This document shows, one piece after another, positions 1-6,800 of a stretch of 64,000 bases of DNA (within the stretch, counting starts at the first letter, position 1; every line of letters begins with the position of its first letter). Source of the DNA: an uncultured Clostridia bacterium (GTDB lineage Bacteria > Bacillota > Clostridia > Christensenellales > Pumilibacteraceae); contig CAMUKG010000002.1 of the NCBI GenBank assembly GCA_947089425.1, positions 124,001 to 188,000 of the forward strand, written 5' to 3'. Both the position numbers and the translations under genes were made by a program. The notes beneath the pieces were generated by a model, which was not told where the DNA came from, searched no databases, and saw only the letters and a program-made list of their open reading frames with translations.

Positions 1-335
1 TGACCAGTTTTATCATTTTTTAAAGTGATTTTATTTTTGTATTGTGAAGTTACGTCGGTGCCGAATGAGGCTATTTCTGACGGCAAAGTTTCCGCTTCCG
101 ACATTTTTGCTTCGCGTGTAAATGTTTTTACGTTACTATCCGTTTCGGGCGCGGTTTGCTCCGCTTGCGGCTTATCCGTTTTTTTAAACCACTCCGACGG
201 TTTTAGCTTATCGCTTTTAGTAAAAACCTGCAAACATACGCCCGCCATAAGCACGGCAAAAAGCACGAACATAATCGCCGTAAGCGTCCATTTCACTTTG
301 TCGCTTCTTTTGTGTTTGTACAATTCGTTTTTCAT
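1..335 (-). CDS. Single-pass membrane protein, C-terminus beyond window edge
   Basis: The gene reads leftward off the window, so only 111 residues are visible. It begins MKNELYKHKRSDKVKW, followed by one hydrophobic segment at about residues 17-38 and then a polar, charged exposed region. The ATG at 333-335 is preceded by GGAGGA at good spacing, which fixes the start. It lies 19 bp downstream of the 101-residue gene in the same direction, so it probably belongs to the same transcript of the replicon. The short basic N-terminus before the membrane segment suggests N-in topology with the bulk outside the cell. I do not recognise a family. A structural, mating-pair or maintenance protein of the element is possible but unproven. 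Confidence 0.75.
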   Translation of the reverse strand, partial: MKNELYKHKRSDKVKWTLTAIMFVLFAVLMAGVCLQVFTKSDKLKPSEWFKKTDKPQAEQTAPETDSNVKTFTREAKMSEAETLPSEIASFGTDVTSQYKNKITLKNDKTG

Positions 336-354
336 GATTTATTCCTCCGAATTT

Positions 355-660
355 TTATTTGTCTTTTTGTATAGCTAAATAAGCTACCGTCTTTTTATTG
401 CGTTTTCCGTTATCGTCATAGAAATGTTCAATAATTTGTTTTTTTGCCGTGCGGTTAAGATTATTCACGTCGCCTTTATATGAAGGTTTTTTCTTATCCG
501 TTGCCGAAACTATCATGTTAGGCATTGTCATTTCCATTTTGCCGACGAATTTGTATTTTGGGTTTAGTCGTTTCTTCCTGGTCTTGCCGATTATCCATGC
601 TTCGCTCGAACCTATTAAACGTACACCTTTATTACCGAGATTGTAATTTACACTTGACAT
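355..660 (-). CDS. Small hypothetical protein of the replicon
   Basis: This encodes 101 residues, strongly basic, with no signal peptide or membrane segment. The ATG at 658-660 has an AGAGGTG ribosome site eight bases upstream. Lys/Arg-rich stretches near residues 26-45 and at the C-terminus would suit a nucleic-acid-binding role, but no motif confirms this. It lies between the small genes downstream of rep and the membrane protein, all on the minus strand with short gaps, so co-transcription is likely. Function is unknown. Confidence 0.7.
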   Translation of the reverse strand: MSSVNYNLGNKGVRLIGSSEAWIIGKTRKKRLNPKYKFVGKMEMTMPNMIVSATDKKKPSYKGDVNNLNRTAKKQIIEHFYDDNGKRNKKTVAYLAIQKDK

Positions 661-839
661 ACTTGCACCTCTTTGATATACTTTAAAAGACCACCAGCCC
701 CTGTAAGGGGAAGCAACGGGATTTCCGCGTTGACAGAGAAGAACGTTTGGTCTTTGTGCGTAGACTTCTCACCGTAACCGTCCGAATACTTCGGGCGGTT
801 AATTTTCGCTTTCGCCGTTTTTATCGAGACTATCCACAA
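648..839 (-). CDS. Possible small ORF or +1 frame extension of the 81-residue gene
   Basis: This is an open frame of 63 codons that begins only with TTG at 837-839 and has no ribosome site. It overlaps the end of the 81-residue gene by 41 bases in the +1 frame and the start of the next gene by 13 bases. From about codon 13 its codon use looks like that of its neighbours. It fills what would otherwise be a 138-bp gap in a tightly packed element. Three readings fit: a translationally coupled small protein, a +1 frameshift product of the upstream gene near GATAAAAACGG, or one gene split by an indel. None can be chosen from the sequence alone. Confidence 0.4.
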   Translation of the reverse strand: MWIVSIKTAKAKINRPKYSDGYGEKSTHKDQTFFSVNAEIPLLPLTGAGGLLKYIKEVQVCQV

Positions 840-1044
840 AATCTATAACAAGCCGCGCTTTCGTTTTCATAGCGCTACACGTTGCCGCATAGTCTATTTT
901 TTCTTTGCCGTCGGCGCCAACGCCTTTAACCTCTATTTGCAAAAGCGATTTAAGTGCCAAATAAATGCGTTCGTATTTCGCCGCTTTTATCTTTTCGGCA
1001 AACGCCGCATTCGGCGACGTTGTCGTTTTCTTGTTTCCAAACAT
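799..1044 (-). CDS. Small hypothetical protein downstream of hammerhead ribozyme
   Basis: This encodes 81 residues starting MFGNKKTTTS, predicted soluble and largely helical, with an acidic C-terminus. The ATG at 1042-1044 has AGAGG about 11 bases upstream. Its 5' leader begins exactly where the hammerhead ribozyme would cut (after plus-strand base 1077), so its mRNA would carry a 5'-hydroxyl end and a leader of about 32 bases, very rich in A. Its family is unknown. See the overlapping 63-codon frame for a possible extended product. Confidence 0.65.
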   Translation of the reverse strand: MFGNKKTTTSPNAAFAEKIKAAKYERIYLALKSLLQIEVKGVGADGKEKIDYAATCSAMKTKARLVIDFVDSLDKNGESEN

Positions 1045-1072: not shown

Positions 1073-1133
1073 CGGAGACGGCGGGGAAGAACTCCGCGCC
1101 GTTTCGTCGGAATTTCACCGACTCGTCAGTCCG
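1073..1133 (-). ncRNA. Type I hammerhead self-cleaving ribozyme
   Basis: On the minus strand all conserved hammerhead elements occur in order. Stem I 5' strand CGGA (1130-1133) is followed by the core CTGACGA (1123-1129, CUGANGA with N = C). Stem II is GTCGG/CCGAC (1118-1122 with 1106-1110) closed by a 7-base loop. Next comes GAAA (1102-1105). Stem III begins with A-U then CGGCG/CGCCG (1097-1101 with 1080-1084), continues after one mismatch with GGA/TCC, and closes in a small loop. The cleavage triplet GTC is at 1077-1079, and stem I 3' strand TCCG at 1073-1076. Stems II and III are capped and stem I is open, which makes it type I. It starts two bases after the rep stop codon and would cut the transcript between rep and the 81-residue gene. 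Loop-loop contacts that speed cleavage cannot be judged here. Confidence 0.87.
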
Positions 1134-1134
1134 C

Positions 1135-2271
1135 TCAAAACGGTAATTTTTCTTTTGTTTCGACCAAATCGCTTAGCTTAACTTGTTTCGCTTGCGTTAC
1201 GGGCTTGCAAATCTTATCGAACAGTTCTTTGAAGTCGAATTTTACTTTCGGCTCTTTTTTCATTTCGTACAGTTCGTTTTCGTACGCAACGCCTTCGCCT
1301 ACGGGCTTGCCCCATTTATCTACGCCGTCGTTGTACATGATTACTTCTTTTTCCGTAACTACTACATAACAGCCGATTCGGCGGTAAAGTTGGTCGAGCG
1401 TGTCGTGTTCTCCGAGTTGCGCGTTTTTGTACCAATACACGAGCGGAACCGAAGACGTGATTACTATCATTTCGCCGCAAAACAGTTTGTTGCTGAACCT
1501 GCTTCGAACCGAGCTTAACGTGTCGTTATCCAAAATTTTGAGCAAGTCGGCAAGCTCGAATGTCGTGTCGCGCAAATCATCGAGTATAATTGCTTTTTGA
1601 CCCATATAATCCTGGAAAGAATCATTTCCGCTACTCGACATACAAAAATCGTATTTTAGGGAAGCGAGGAGCTTTTTCGCATAATACGTTTTGCCCGTTC
1701 CGCCCTTGCCGCAAATAAAAATTACTTTAATTTTGCGGTCGGCGTTTAATGAAAGCCGTGCGCAATGCAACTCCCATAATTTTTTAAGTTTTGTGTACAC
1801 CGTCGCTTTTTCCGAAACGGGTAGGGAATCGACATAAGCGATTTGCTCGGCGTAGCTGTGTTTTTCGAAATCCCCGAGAATTTGCGCGTTTTTGATTTCC
1901 ACTTGAAAATCGAAATTCGCAATAACTTCGTCGGGAGAGTATTGATGTTTGTTTTTCTGACTGTCGTTACCGTGCGTTAAGTATAAAAGTACGTCGGTCC
2001 GCCTACCTTTTACACGTTCTATAAATTGTTCGCCGCTATGTTCCGCGCCGTTTTCGTCGGTATATCCAAGCTGAAACCATTTTGCAACCATAGCCGTGTC
2101 GCAACTGCTGTTTCCGAACGATATATAAATGTGGTAGTGCGGGCGAGTGTCGTCTTTGTCATGAAGAATATACGCCCACTGCTTTATCGTTTTATATTTC
2201 ATGCAAGTTTCTTGTATATCCACATGGAGCTTGTCGGCATCGGTAACTATTTCCATTTGCCTTAAAACCAT
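1135..2271 (-). CDS. rep: Rolling-circle replication initiator, HUH nickase fused to SF3 helicase
   Basis: This 378-residue protein starts replication of a circular DNA by nicking the origin and unwinding it. The N-terminal Rep_2-like HUH domain shows a DKDDTRPHYHIYI block (HYH at 45-47, metal binding) and a YLTHGN block (97-102) that should carry the catalytic tyrosine. The C-terminal half is an SF3-type helicase: Walker A GKGGTGKT (188-195), Walker B AIILDD (227-232) and a motif C-like MIVITSS (268-274), where the usual Asn is Ser. A Rep_2 nickase joined to an SF3 helicase is the layout of bacterial pCRESS plasmid Reps, relatives of eukaryotic CRESS-DNA virus Reps. The ATG at 2269-2271 has AAAGGGG upstream. 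The origin-like region lies directly upstream and a hammerhead ribozyme directly downstream. Confidence 0.88.
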   Translation of the reverse strand: MVLRQMEIVTDADKLHVDIQETCMKYKTIKQWAYILHDKDDTRPHYHIYISFGNSSCDTAMVAKWFQLGYTDENGAEHSGEQFIERVKGRRTDVLLYLTHGNDSQKNKHQYSPDEVIANFDFQVEIKNAQILGDFEKHSYAEQIAYVDSLPVSEKATVYTKLKKLWELHCARLSLNADRKIKVIFICGKGGTGKTYYAKKLLASLKYDFCMSSSGNDSFQDYMGQKAIILDDLRDTTFELADLLKILDNDTLSSVRSRFSNKLFCGEMIVITSSVPLVYWYKNAQLGEHDTLDQLYRRIGCYVVVTEKEVIMYNDGVDKWGKPVGEGVAYENELYEMKKEPKVKFDFKELFDKICKPVTQAKQVKLSDLVETKEKLPF

Positions 2272-2360
2272 TACATAACCCCTTTGCTTTATTTAAAAAT
2301 TGTTTTTTATACGTTTTTTACCTCTTTTTATACAATTTTTTATGCTTTTTATACGTTTTG

Positions 2361-2393
2361 GCGCACCGCTTGGACGAGCCCTAAGCGGTGCGC
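2361..2393. repeat. 11-bp perfect inverted repeat, candidate nick-site hairpin or terminator
   Basis: The arms GCGCACCGCTT (2361-2371) and AAGCGGTGCGC (2383-2393) pair perfectly around the 11-base loop GGACGAGCCCT. It is flanked by the iterons. On the plus strand TGTTTTT follows, so it could also work as a terminator for any rightward transcript, but there is no plus-strand gene here. Position and strength favour an origin hairpin extruded for Rep nicking. Confidence 0.6.
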
Positions 2394-2457
2394 TGTTTTT
2401 ATTGATTTTTGGTGCCTTTTTGCCGCTTTTTACAGCATTTTTGCTATTTTTTAGGAC

Positions 2458-2466: not shown

Positions 2467-2534
2467 TTTTGCGTCTCTGTTGTTTTATACGTTTTATACG
2501 TTTTGTCATGTTTTTGAATTTTGCACGTTTTTGC

Positions 2535-2789
2535 TTATTCCAAACCGTCACAATGACCGTATTTTTCTATCATACATTGTCGGGAATATTCTAAACTGTT
2601 TTTTGCATATTCTTTTGACGTACATGGTAGACATGTAAACGGGTCGGACATAAGAGCATATTTCTTCATCATTTTATCATAAAAACCGTCAGGAACTTTC
2701 GTGTCCGAAAAAATAAGCTCTTCCAAAAAATCTATTGCAACTTTTTGTTCTTTTTCAGTGACTTGCCTCACAGTATTTCGCAATTTCAT
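2535..2789 (-). CDS. Small hypothetical protein with cysteine pairs
   Basis: This encodes 84 residues with a helical N-terminal half and a C-terminal part carrying four cysteines (CLPC, then a Cys 20 residues on, then one near the end) that could bind a metal. The ATG at 2787-2789 overlaps the stop of the upstream gene as TAATG, a sign of translational coupling, and AGGTGGG lies upstream. It is the last gene of the SSB-like operon before the origin. Family unknown. Confidence 0.7.
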   Translation of the reverse strand: MKLRNTVRQVTEKEQKVAIDFLEELIFSDTKVPDGFYDKMMKKYALMSDPFTCLPCTSKEYAKNSLEYSRQCMIEKYGHCDGLE

Positions 2790-3010
2790 TAAGCAATCCC
2801 ACCTTCGACATTCTTATGCCGTGATGGAAACATGCGCTTTTCGGCTTCGTCTATAAGCGTTTTTACTTTGTCATAACTTTCTTTAACCGTTATACAGTCC
2901 ATGCTTTCCGTCACAATAAACGTGCCTTTCTTATCTTCCGAGCCCACCATTAAAATTTCTCCGACGCGGAGATATAGCGGGGTGTCCCGACTTGTTACTT
3001 CGATAAACAT
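2789..3010 (-). CDS. FlbD-like small protein
   Basis: This encodes 73 residues. The N-terminus MFIEVTSRDTPLYLRVGEIL, the short beta-rich core with a central turn, and a segment ending in TVKESYDKV resemble the small FlbD-like fold, which is also common in phage and plasmid genomes. There is no flagellar gene nearby, so the name describes the fold only. It lies 9 bp after the SSB-like gene and overlaps the next gene by one base. Its role in the element is unknown. Confidence 0.65.
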   Translation of the reverse strand: MFIEVTSRDTPLYLRVGEILMVGSEDKKGTFIVTESMDCITVKESYDKVKTLIDEAEKRMFPSRHKNVEGGIA

Positions 3011-3019
3011 ACACGCCCC

Positions 3020-3322
3020 CTAAAATAGAATATCATTGTCGGATACGAGCGAATCCGATTCGTTGGCGGCGGATGTATTTTGCTGTTGAGTTTTCTTTTT
3101 TCCGACGTTTTCGCGTTCGGGAAGTGTTGCGGCAAATGCAGACAAAAGCGTTTTTCTTACACGATAATTTTTATCTGTCCCCGTTTCCTTATCCTCGAAA
3201 AATTTGACTTCTACGGGAATCATTTGGTCGCCGCACGCCACAAAAAAATTCGTAGCTTGTTTTTCTTCTCCGTTTTTGTCTTTGTAGGTTGCCAACTTCT
3301 TATACAATTTTACTTCTGCCAT
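3020..3322 (-). CDS. Putative single-stranded-DNA-binding protein
   Basis: This 100-residue protein has a beta-rich N-terminal two thirds (residues 1-60), a Lys/Gln-rich linker, and an acidic tail ending SDNDILF. The tail resembles the acidic, hydrophobic tip (DDDIPF type) with which SSB proteins recruit partner enzymes. Size, tail and position in the same operon cluster as a rolling-circle Rep make an SSB role likely, because rolling-circle replication exposes single strands. The OB-fold itself cannot be confirmed by eye. The ATG at 3320-3322 has AAAGGAGAG eight bases upstream. It is the first gene of its operon. Confidence 0.65.
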   Translation of the reverse strand: MAEVKLYKKLATYKDKNGEEKQATNFFVACGDQMIPVEVKFFEDKETGTDKNYRVRKTLLSAFAATLPERENVGKKKTQQQNTSAANESDSLVSDNDILF

Positions 3323-3657
3323 TTCTCGGCTCTCCTTTGCCTTTCGGCTTAAAAAATTTATTTACAAACGGCTATACGCCATATTGTACTAAATTGTAAC
3401 GGAAAGCCTTTTCGCTGGTGTTGACTACGTCTTCATTTCTTGGGTTTTTTGTCCCGTTGCATACGGGCACCGTCTATGTCGTTTGTGGCTTTTTTATGTG
3501 TCTTAAACCGTTGCATTACCCAAAGGGGGAGTGGCTTTTCGCCGCCACTCACGGCGAAAAAGGCTTTTTTGGCCATATAAAAATGGCTCTATACCTTTCG
3601 CTACAAGTATAAAACAGCACGCATATTAAAATCCTAACTATTTGCAGAGGTAAACGG
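3323..3657. other. Non-coding stretch with overlapping hairpins
   Basis: No convincing gene lies here. At 3529-3563 two hairpins share bases: GAGTGGC/GCCACTC (3529-3535 with 3544-3550) and CTTTTCGCCG with CGGCGAAAAAG (3535-3544 with 3552-3562, one extra A). They cannot form together, and a T run (3565-3570) follows. A smaller CCCGT/ACGGG hairpin lies near 3453-3467. The stretch separates the minus-strand replicon from the plus-strand genes and may hold the element boundary, but no attachment-site repeat could be recognised. Confidence 0.45.
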
Positions 3658-3686
3658 TTGACTTTTTGCTTGTTTGGGAGTATACT
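3658..3686 (+). promoter_or_regulatory. Sigma-A-type promoter
   Basis: TTGACT (3658-3663) and TATACT (3681-3686) are separated by the optimal 17 bases. It is the only strong promoter found between the replicon and the 2491-residue subtilisin gene, which starts about 195 bases downstream behind a structured leader. Confidence 0.75.
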
Positions 3687-3692
3687 AATTAA

Positions 3693-3793
3693 AACGCTAC
3701 ACTCTAACGGTGGCGCTTGTTTGCAACCGCGAAAGGTATCAAGAACCGACAAGGGCGTCGCTTATACCGCATGGTATAGTAATGCCCTTTTTT
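3693..3793 (+). promoter_or_regulatory. Structured leader with terminator/antiterminator, candidate riboswitch or sRNA
   Basis: From the predicted start near 3693 about 100 bases of structured RNA run to an intrinsic terminator. AAGGGC/GCCCTT (3751-3756 with 3784-3789) and TATACC/GGTATA (3763-3768 with 3773-3778) form the terminator stem, and a T run follows at 3788-3793. An upstream segment GGTATCAAG (3735-3743) can pair with CTTATACC (3761-3768) with one bulge, which would break the terminator. Such a switchable terminator between a promoter and a coding region is the usual layout of an attenuator or riboswitch. I do not recognise a known aptamer. A stand-alone small RNA is the alternative. 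Confidence 0.5.
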
Positions 3794-3886
3794 GTTTCCT
3801 TCCGCTTTGCGTTGCGGTTTTTGCACGGAATTTTTATGTGCGTTTCTTGAAATTTACGAAAGTTAGAACCTCATGGAGAAATTGAA

Positions 3887-6800
3887 ATGACTAAGAGAAG
3901 AAAACTTTGTGCATCGCTCGTTATGCTGGTTGTGTTTGCCGCGACCGTGTTTTCGACCGCATTCATATCGCCGCGCGCGTCCGCGTCGCCGTCCGCTTCG
4001 GCAGCGAACGGAAGTTTTACCGAAGTGACAGAACAGTACGGTTCACTTGCGCTCGAAACCGAGCAATTCGCCAAAAGCGTTAAGCGCCTCTCTGACGTTG
4101 CGAACAACGAAAAATATATAACGCTCATAGCTTCGCTCGACGCGCCCACAGTGCTCGACGTAGCCGACGGCGAAAAAGTTGCCGATATTATAGGCACCGC
4201 CAAATATAACGACGCCGTTAAAAATATAAAGGCGGAGCGCAAGAGTCTTTTGCGCGCGCTCAAAAAAGCAAAAATAAAATACACGCTCGAAAGCGAATAC
4301 GACACCGTTTTGGCGGGCGTCGCGGTGAGGATAGAAACCGAAGATTTCGAACGCGCCGAAGAAATAGTGAACGGCATTGGTGGCAAAGCCATTGTGTCCG
4401 AAACTTATTACGCCCCGCAAGCGATAGAGTCGGCTATGCCGAATGCGGTTTCTTCGTCGGGCGTAACCGAAAACAAAGTTAAGGTTTACGAAACGGGCAT
4501 ATTCGATTCGAGCGACGTGGAATACAAGGGCGACGGCGTAGTTGTTGCTGTTCTCGACTCGGGATTCGATTATACGCACCCCGTGTTTACCGAGTCCGTT
4601 CCTCCCAAAGCCTCCATTTCTATGGATTATACTGCGGTTTCCGACAGTCTCGGCAGTACCGTCGCCTCGAAATTGAGTTCGGGGCTTACCGCGTCCGACG
4701 TGTATGTGTCGGATAAAATTCCGTTTGCCTACGACTACGCCGACAAAGATTCGGACGTATATCCGTTAGAGAGCAGTCACGGAACTCACGTTGCAAGCAT
4801 TATAGCGGGCAAGAGCACTACGCCGAGCGCCGACGGAATTACGATTACGGGCGTGGCTCCAAACGCTCAGCTCGTTTTGATGAAAGTGTTCTCCGATACC
4901 GATTCGGGCGCAAAATCGAGTTGGCTCTTGAACGCTATCGACGACTGCGTTAAACTCGGGGTAGACGTAATAAATATGAGTCTCGGCTCTTCGGCGGGCT
5001 TTGCGAACGAAGACGACGACAAAGGCACCGACGAGCTTTATGACAAAGTGCGCGAAGCGGGTATAAGCCTTATTGTTGCCGCGAGCAACTCATATAACGC
5101 AACTTACGGAAGCGAGGCAAACGGCAACTTGCCGCTCACCTCAAATCCCGATTCGGGCACTGTGGGCTCGCCCTCGACCTATGCTTCCGCGCTTAGCGTT
5201 GCGAGCATAAGCGGCGTTAAAACTCCGTATCTTACGTTCGGCGGAGAACCTATATATTATTACGAAGCGAACAACACTGCGGGCGAAGCTTATAACTTTA
5301 TGGATATGATGCTCAAAGGAAGCCAAAGCGGCACTTTCGAGTATGTGGTTGTGCCCGGCATAGGCGACACACCTTCGTATATCGGCATGGACGTGAAGGG
5401 CAAAATCGCTCTTGTGCGCAGAGGCAAAAACACTTTCGAAGAAAAGGTGCAGGCTGCTTATAACGCGGGCGCGTCGGGCGTTATTATATACAATAACGTG
5501 TCGGGCGATATTCGCATGAGCGTGGGCAACTATCTTTACGACTGGGGCATAGGGTGTATTTCCATGTCGCAAGACGACGGCGAAAAACTTGCCTCAACTC
5601 CTACCGGCAAAATCACTCTTTCCAAAGAGAACCTTGCGGGACCTTTTATGTCCGACTTCTCGTCGTGGGGACCTACCGCGAGCTTAGGGATAAAACCCGA
5701 AATCACCGCTCACGGCGGCGACATTTTGGCGGCTATTCCCGGCGGATATTACGACAGACTTTCGGGTACGAGCATGGCGTCGCCCAACCAAGCGGGCGTG
5801 CACGCGCTCGTTAGGCAGTATGCAAAACAAAAACTCGGCATCGAGGGAAAACCGAACAACGCGCAAAAGAAAGAAATCGCGAAACTCAGCAATCAGCTTT
5901 TAATGTCTACTACCGACATAGCGTATAACGAATTCGGCAACCCGTATTCGGTGCGCAAGCAAGGCGCGGGACTCGCAAACCTTTATAACGCCGTAACTAC
6001 GGGCAGTTATTTGGTTGTGAAAGACGGCGCCGAAGAACTTGACCGCACAAAACTCGAACTCGGCGACGACCCCGAGAAGAGCGGCGTTTACACTCTTAAC
6101 TTCACTGTGAAGAACGTTTCGAATTCGGCGGCGTCGTTCGACGTAGAGACTCTCGTGTATACCGAAAGCGTTTCGAAAACTCTCACCGATAAAGACGAAA
6201 CCGTGAGCAGCGAACGAGCTTATATGCTTTCCGACACTTCCGTATCGGTGAGCGGCAACGGCGTTTCGGGCAAGCGCGTGAGCGTTTCGGCGGGCGGAGA
6301 GGTTGACCTTACGGTTGTGCTCACCCTTTCGAAAGCGGCGAAAGATTATCTTGACGCAAGCTTTGAAAACGGCATGTACGTAGAGGGCTTCGTTCGGCTC
6401 ATAGCGGCGGACGAGGGGGGAGTGAATTTGTCGGCTCCGTTCCTCGCGTTTTACGGCGATTGGACGAAAGCGCCCATTTTCGACTTGACGTATTTCGAGA
6501 CCAACCCCGACGAAATCAACGACGCGATAGACAACGAAGATAAAATCAAACCCGACGCATGGGCAACTCGACCCATTGCGGGACTGAGCAAAGACTATAT
6601 AGGTTATATGGGCGGCTATTACTGGGTGCAAAACCCCGAAGACGTGCAAATTCCCGCGCAGGAAGAGCATATCGCGCTTACAAATCATGATAACGGCTTG
6701 AATTCGATTTACGCCGTTTGGGCGGGACTTTTGCGTAACGCCAAAGAAATGGACGTTACCATAACCGATACGGTTACGGGCAGACAGATTTATAAAAAGA

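Follow-up and report, generated by a model that had tools for sequence, protein, structure and literature searches.

A complete type I hammerhead ribozyme lies directly behind a CRESS-type rep gene on the minus strand of the window, the 64,000-nt stretch of DNA analysed here. We propose, with a probability of roughly two in three, that cleavage by this hammerhead between C1077 and U1076 splits a polycistronic transcript into the rep mRNA and the downstream mRNA, and that its position at the rep stop codon is put to use.

All parts of the motif named in the first-pass annotation can be read on the minus strand from 1133 to 1073 (Table 1). Stem I opens with CGGA (1133–1130), followed by the core segment CUGACGA (1129–1123); stem II pairs GUCGG (1122–1118) with CCGAC (1110–1106) around the loop UGAAAUU; GAA (1105–1103) joins stem II to the 5′ strand of stem III, ACGGCG (1102–1097); the inner part of stem III reads C, GGA, the loop GUUCU, UCC and C before CGCCGU (1083–1078); and C1077 meets UCCG (1076–1073) at the predicted cut. 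The core of CUGACGA, GAAA and GUC is complete and follows the order CUGANGA ... GAAA ... NUH, the stems measure 4, 5 and 6 + 3 bp, and helices II and III are closed by loops with helix I open, the arrangement of type I. Self-cleavage is predicted between C1077 and U1076. A single base, G1134, separates stem I from the rep stop codon. First-order shuffling, done 30 times and read on both strands, gave 60 shuffled strands of 64 kb, none of which holds a match with stems of at least 4, 5 and 6 bp. In RNAfold, the hammerhead fold of the window 63-mer has an energy of −24.2 kcal/mol and the unconstrained optimum, an alternative fold, is 0.6 better at −24.8 kcal/mol; among seven hammerhead copies folded, the hammerhead is the optimum in three and lies 0.6–1.8 kcal/mol above it in four. 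The 75-nt stretch at the hammerhead shows no unusual stability (z −1.28). A UGAAA-like loop II and an A-rich 5′ flank are recurrent among the copies, and we only infer a tertiary contact between loop II and stem I.

Table 1. Features of the rep–hammerhead region, with positions in the window
Feature	Position	Strand	Remarks and basis
571-aa membrane protein, start	3..335	minus	List_Bact repeats; runs past window, L002:10620-12335
101-aa ORF	355..660	minus	No family match; retained in the element's relatives
Antisense unit	654..801	plus	Promoter-like TTGACA-17-TATACT 654-682; terminator-like hairpin 775-801; consensus scan
81-aa ORF, next after hammerhead	799..1044	minus	No family match; 39% homologue directly behind Rep in L006
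Type I hammerhead ribozyme	1073..1133	minus	Core and three stems read directly; relatives' models; two-sided changes
rep stop codon TGA	1135..1137	minus	1 nt before stem I; sequence, stop-to-stem gap
rep, 378 aa	1135..2271	minus	HUH nuclease, YLxH motif, SF3-type helicase; Pfam and invariant residues
15-bp hairpin amid ATACGTTTT repeats	2359..2395		Within 2280-2510 upstream of rep; sequence scan
100-aa ORF upstream of rep	3020..3322	minus	No family match; SSB-like by reading only; homologues in the same place

An Rfam search returns no match for the site at the gathering level. The site scores 26.5 bits with RF00008, in a shifted register (threshold 48.5), and 16.3 bits with RF03152, the RAGATH-1 hammerhead, which matches in the right register yet falls far short of its threshold of 56.3. 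The window site is not among the matches of RF00163, run over the whole genome up to E 10 with 150 of 392 first-look candidates scored; this model finds another hammerhead of the same genome at 24.6 bits, also below threshold. The first-pass annotation had proposed that a covariance score below the family threshold should count against the assignment, and by that standard the assignment would be refuted. We nevertheless take the hammerhead as real because the comparative evidence set out below overrides these scores; a gathering threshold is a detection limit and no defining trait of the class.

The gene ahead of the hammerhead was correctly recognized as a CRESS-type rep. Its product matches Rep_OBD (5e-9) and RNA_helicase (2e-7) in Pfam, with PF00910, the SF3 helicase domain, above cut-off. 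The HUH motif (H45, Y46, H47) is invariant across 23 aligned Reps, as are Y97, L98 and H100 of the YLxH motif (Y97-L-T-H100). The closest plasmid records are Reps of phytoplasma plasmids, at ~32% identity to the window Rep, and a YLxH signature is known from motif III of pCRESS Reps (PMC6668415). With its HUH, YLxH and SF3-helicase features, the protein fits the pCRESS YLxH supergroup by its motifs. The hairpin upstream of rep, which is also seen in L028 (by eye), may form with the surrounding repeats a candidate rolling-circle origin with Rep-binding repeats.

To what extent does the ribozyme accompany this Rep? Rep relatives 58–86% identical to the window protein were collected at 23 loci from GTDB genomes, two of which end inside rep or 12 nt past it; a hammerhead stands behind Rep in two of the remaining 21. 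It begins 0 nt past the Rep stop in L003 (Clostridia RACS_047), with stems of 5/5/9, and 62 nt past it in L004 (Pumilibacter intestinalis), where stem II has an AA bulge. A search of other Rep loci with a covariance model of these two copies and the window copy yields no match above 15 bits; in 74 family genomes, the same three-copy model finds four more hammerheads that pass the structure check. One of these four is on contig C35 of G030 (L059), which opens with the final Rep codons (...KLSDLVEVKEELPF, stop), followed by 3 nt and the ribozyme. In L003, L004 and L059 the gaps from the Rep stop to the ribozyme are thus 0, 62 and 3 nt. Seven family genomes have this Rep: the ribozyme is behind it in four (G000, G049, G055 and G030) and missing from that place in three (G050, which is L006 from Pumilibacter muris, G014 and G059). 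The carriers span three genera, with G000 and G049 in one and G055 and G030 in two others.

Compensatory changes keep the hammerhead helices in these relatives. Two-sided changes affect 12 of 15 pairs among seven hammerheads, four behind Rep and three elsewhere, and 92.4% of cells pair, compared with 73.8% after shuffling and 28–46% after sliding, in an alignment that was fitted to the model, which favours pairing. In the Rep tree, all four ribozyme carriers and L006 form a clade of five with support 100/100. The best tree implies two changes in ribozyme presence, for example one gain and one loss, and the well-supported branches alone are compatible with a single change; G030 enters the tree by its first 164 residues only. 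The gene that follows the ribozyme is the 81-aa ORF in the window, another ORF in L003, a very short ORF in L004 and the 101-aa ORF in L059. Because these following genes differ among the four Rep loci, the ribozyme belongs to the 3′ end of rep. It is also dispensable, since the close relative L006 has an element without it.

The host element is chromosomal, and its minus-strand genes run from ~3322 to beyond the start of the window (L002): the 100-aa ORF, rep, the ribozyme, the 81-aa and 101-aa ORFs, then membrane proteins of 571, 183 and 673 aa, a single-segment protein of 31 aa and an ATPase of 719 aa with membrane helices at its N-terminus. Relatives repeat parts of this order. A homologue of the 101-aa ORF product is 79% identical in L059, and another occurs in L089 (by eye). 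The 31-aa protein, encoded directly before the ATPase, has homologues in eight other loci at E < 0.001, and the element shares with inoviruses small proteins (30–90 aa) with a single membrane segment. The ATPase, a membrane P-loop protein, occurs in 60 of the 396 order genomes, and its fold comparison gives only general RecA-like matches. Neither it nor 18 relatives show similarity to Zot up to E 1; the sole Zot match of the window genome at E ≤ 0.001 lies elsewhere. We tentatively describe the element as filamentous-phage-like and do not file it as an inovirus. A relative 46% identical to the ATPase is encoded by a 57-kb phage record from human faeces (MT835493.1:31828-33900), and an IS200-type transposase gene (Y1_Tnp) lies near the far end of the element (L002:3005-3466, plus strand).

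In L006, the 571-, 183- and 673-aa proteins are 98–99% identical to those of the window's element, Rep is 72% identical and the ribozyme is absent, a pattern that marks the two as mosaic relatives. L006 also carries a 46-aa membrane protein, coat-protein-like, which was not found in the window's element. By eye, L004 and L059 also have a hairpin like the terminator-like one of the antisense unit, placed after the ribozyme. Further strong promoter-like sites in antisense orientation, followed by hairpins with T-runs, face the element's genes at L002 ~2480-4210 (plus strand); together with the unit in the window, these could be counter-transcribed RNAs or single-strand origins.

A second covariance model, built from the seven copies and run over 396 genomes of the order, gave 22 matches: the seven training copies, seven further full hammerheads, three with altered cores and five non-hammerheads. 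In six loci (L060, L061, L085, L087, L088 and L089) the ribozyme precedes a gene of 145–183 aa (by eye), for which the two examples examined gave no Pfam or PHROG match; a SprT-like gene (Pfam SprT-like) is upstream of the ribozyme in L061 and L085. Elsewhere, the L062 hammerhead adjoins Erf, exonuclease and NinB-type genes, and those of L091 and L092 precede phage replication-initiation-type genes. The window genome itself has a second complete type I hammerhead (L063; G000:C17:4806-4868, minus strand), 2 nt past the stop of a 64-codon frame in prophage-like surroundings that resemble L062 (by eye). An ATPase of the 719-aa type is found on the same contig as a hammerhead in G000, G049, G352, G309 and G420. 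The ribozyme is thus not special to Rep, and in phages and mobile elements it also follows genes of other kinds. The altered cores, CCGGCGA in L086 and L090 and CCGAUGA in L093, are flanked by stems that still pair by eye; these may be decayed or variant ribozymes.

The first-pass annotation noted how close the hammerhead lies to the rep stop codon and missed that this closeness recurs across hammerheads. We counted stops that close a frame of at least 60 codons and lie at most 3 nt before stem I. Among the Clostridia hammerheads, 6 of 14 start this close to such a stop, as do 331 of 28,000 random nearby positions; in this count L087 and L088 are near-copies, and L059, with a UAA 3 nt before stem I that we read as the Rep C-terminus, is placed among the misses because its frame extends beyond the contig. 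Viral contigs were scanned with two flank-independent patterns comprising the core, stem II and loop II, which detected 97 and 24 stretches, respectively, the 97 sharing one 29-base core. Of 103 matches in the first scan, 6 type III, 6 unclassified, 4 duplicate and 2 near-end cases were dropped to leave 85; the 24 of the second were reduced to 18 by dropping 3 type III, 1 unclassified and 2 duplicates. A third core pattern, found at a single locus already in the set, was excluded. The gap is at most 3 nt for 36/85 type I copies in the first scan (random positions 437/42500) and for 7/18 in the second (102/9000), so that over both scans 43/103 are flush with a stop codon, compared with ~1% of random positions. 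Copies lying beyond 3 nt are the majority (49/85 and 11/18); those of the first scan comprise 6 at 4–10 nt, 3 at 11–30 nt, 12 at 31–119 nt and 28 with no such stop within 119 nt. None of the eight usable type III copies has such a stop within 3 nt of its 5′ end. Two viral contigs, L118 and L174, contain three exact core-pattern matches each, within about 1.6 and 3.5 kb.

Could an A-rich flank alone produce flush stops? It does not explain them, because a stop triplet next to the ribozyme ends a long frame far more often than one located elsewhere: 36/67 versus 935/22228 nearby in the first scan (odds ratio 26) and 7/15 versus 219/3411 elsewhere in the second. The copies are partly related, and the statistical significance of these counts is therefore overstated; the agreement of the two sets carries more weight. 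On the downstream side, 80 of the 97 first-scan loci were considered and 69 were usable, a start being accepted if it had a ribosome site and opened a frame of 40 codons or more. Such a start lies within 200 nt past the cut in 48/69 copies, 35 of these 48 at 19–46 nt, and none is found within that distance in the other 21. The window copy, with 1 nt to the stop and 32 nt from cut to ATG, fits the pattern. The gap in L004 shows that even within the Rep group a hammerhead need not start flush with the stop. As a tendency, type I hammerheads begin right where the preceding gene's stop codon ends, and this observation is new here.

A sequence of events can be envisaged for the window element. The rep and downstream genes would be co-transcribed; a consensus scan of minus-strand positions 1044 to 2271 finds neither a promoter-like nor a terminator-like site. 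The hammerhead would then cleave the polycistronic RNA in the cell between C1077 and U1076, and the separation of rep from the genes that follow, as envisaged in the first-pass annotation, is the natural consequence of this predicted cleavage. The control of Rep level, and through it of copy number, that was suggested there as well would be a further possible effect. Stems II and III would stay on the rep fragment and give it a structured 3′ end that carries a 2′,3′-cyclic phosphate, and the downstream fragment would begin with a 5′-OH and a 32-nt leader, carrying AGAGG ahead of the ATG of the 81-aa ORF, and would be translated on its own. While terminating on rep, a ribosome would lie over the ribozyme's first bases, and the layout therefore invites coupling of termination to cleavage: with stem I and the core covered, folding would wait for the departure of the last ribosome. 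Alternatively, the stop-codon position may serve to trim the message directly behind the reading frame. Operon cutting placed at translation termination is in our judgement the best explanation. We extend this idea only tentatively, and with some doubt, to a general rule in which type I hammerheads of phages and rolling-circle elements act as termination-gated operon scissors and the Rep element is one case. Under such a rule, the upstream stop would be built into the 5′ flank of the ribozyme, a terminating ribosome would keep the ribozyme open and, once translation stops, the message would be cut shortly upstream of the gene that comes next.

The strongest competitor to operon splitting is that the hammerhead is active and mainly stabilizes or trims the 3′ end of the rep mRNA, any downstream effect being a by-product. 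We give this somewhat less than even odds. It accounts well for the flush stop codons, for a ribozyme that stays with rep while the following genes differ and for the type I layout, in which the upstream fragment keeps stems II and III. It accounts less well for the second group of loci, in which the ribozyme is kept before the 145–183 aa gene while upstream genes vary (by eye), and for cuts that mostly fall 19–46 nt before a start where one follows (35/48).

That the motif is a passenger, spreading from one phage or mobile element to another without benefit to this element, is improbable in our estimation. The occurrence of one 29-base core in 97 viral-contig stretches, the full hammerheads in other phage-like regions, including the second one of the window genome, and the lack of a ribozyme in L006 speak for it. 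An intact core and pairing stems in four diverged copies behind the same Rep speak against it, as does a placement at stop codons that is far from random. That the hammerhead yields RNA circles or unit-length RNA, in the manner of viroids and retrozymes, is suggested by the shared ribozyme class and by the rolling-circle-type Rep of the element. However, this Rep family acts on DNA, and scanning both strands of the Rep loci L002, L003 and L004 finds a single hammerhead only in each, so we give this reading very little credence. Chance resemblance without function can appeal to the scores under the Rfam thresholds and is hardly credible: the shuffled strands, the covariation and the recurrence at the same place in relatives refute it as far as sequence goes.

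Hammerheads in prophages have been described before, with the proposal that cleavage of phage transcripts yields mRNAs the length of an operon or a gene (Perreault et al. 2011, PMC3088659); three tandem arrays put to the test cleaved in vitro, the A. tumefaciens one also in E. coli (PMC3088659). The window copy is of the same class and the cutting of transcripts is proposed for both, its own cleavage being predicted only. Many of those prophage hammerheads lie near integrases, clustered around varying genes, unlike the window copy; the passages on them name no CRESS-type Rep, and the term 'stop codon' is absent from the main text of that paper. With the integrated pCRESS plasmids (Kazlauskas et al. 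2019, PMC6668415) the element shares the HUH/YLxH/SF3 Rep and chromosomal integration, but it differs in having a membrane P-loop ATPase and small membrane proteins, and the word 'ribozyme' is absent from the main text on those plasmids. With inoviruses that have an atypical morphogenesis gene (Roux et al. 2019, PMC6813254) it shares membrane segments N-terminal to the ATPase and small single-segment proteins, but its ATPase has no Zot-family similarity, and 'ribozyme' is likewise absent from PMC6813254. Exchangeable replication modules are a likeness of the window element and inoviruses (PMC6668415).

The first-pass annotation held the pairing of a Rep with a hammerhead to be undescribed, and our literature searches found no paper on it. 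In full-text searches, no paper pairs a hammerhead ribozyme with an inovirus, hammerhead ribozymes with filamentous phage retrieve only papers unrelated by title, nothing combines a hammerhead ribozyme with bacteriophage, replication protein and single-stranded DNA, and hammerhead ribozymes with stop codon and prophage retrieve, among the matches listed, one paper on plant viruses. The pairing and the stop-codon rule are thus absent from the searched literature, which covers few subscription papers, and this is no proof of novelty. Prophage hammerheads as such are already known; the placement flush with stop codons is new here.

The role of hammerheads in bacteria has been called an open question (PMC6155905). 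Four genomes from three genera with a hammerhead behind one and the same Rep, together with the stop-codon placement of 43/103 viral-contig copies, lead to a precise hypothesis, that of a cut made after termination and shortly before the next ribosome site, and the layout of stop codon followed by hammerhead could make the role of the bacterial ribozymes testable. If true, the termination-gated rule would give bacterial hammerheads a role, and self-cleaving RNA would rank among the standard parts with which phage operons are split; in the present element, with its rolling-circle Rep, the split would fall between replication and virion-type genes.
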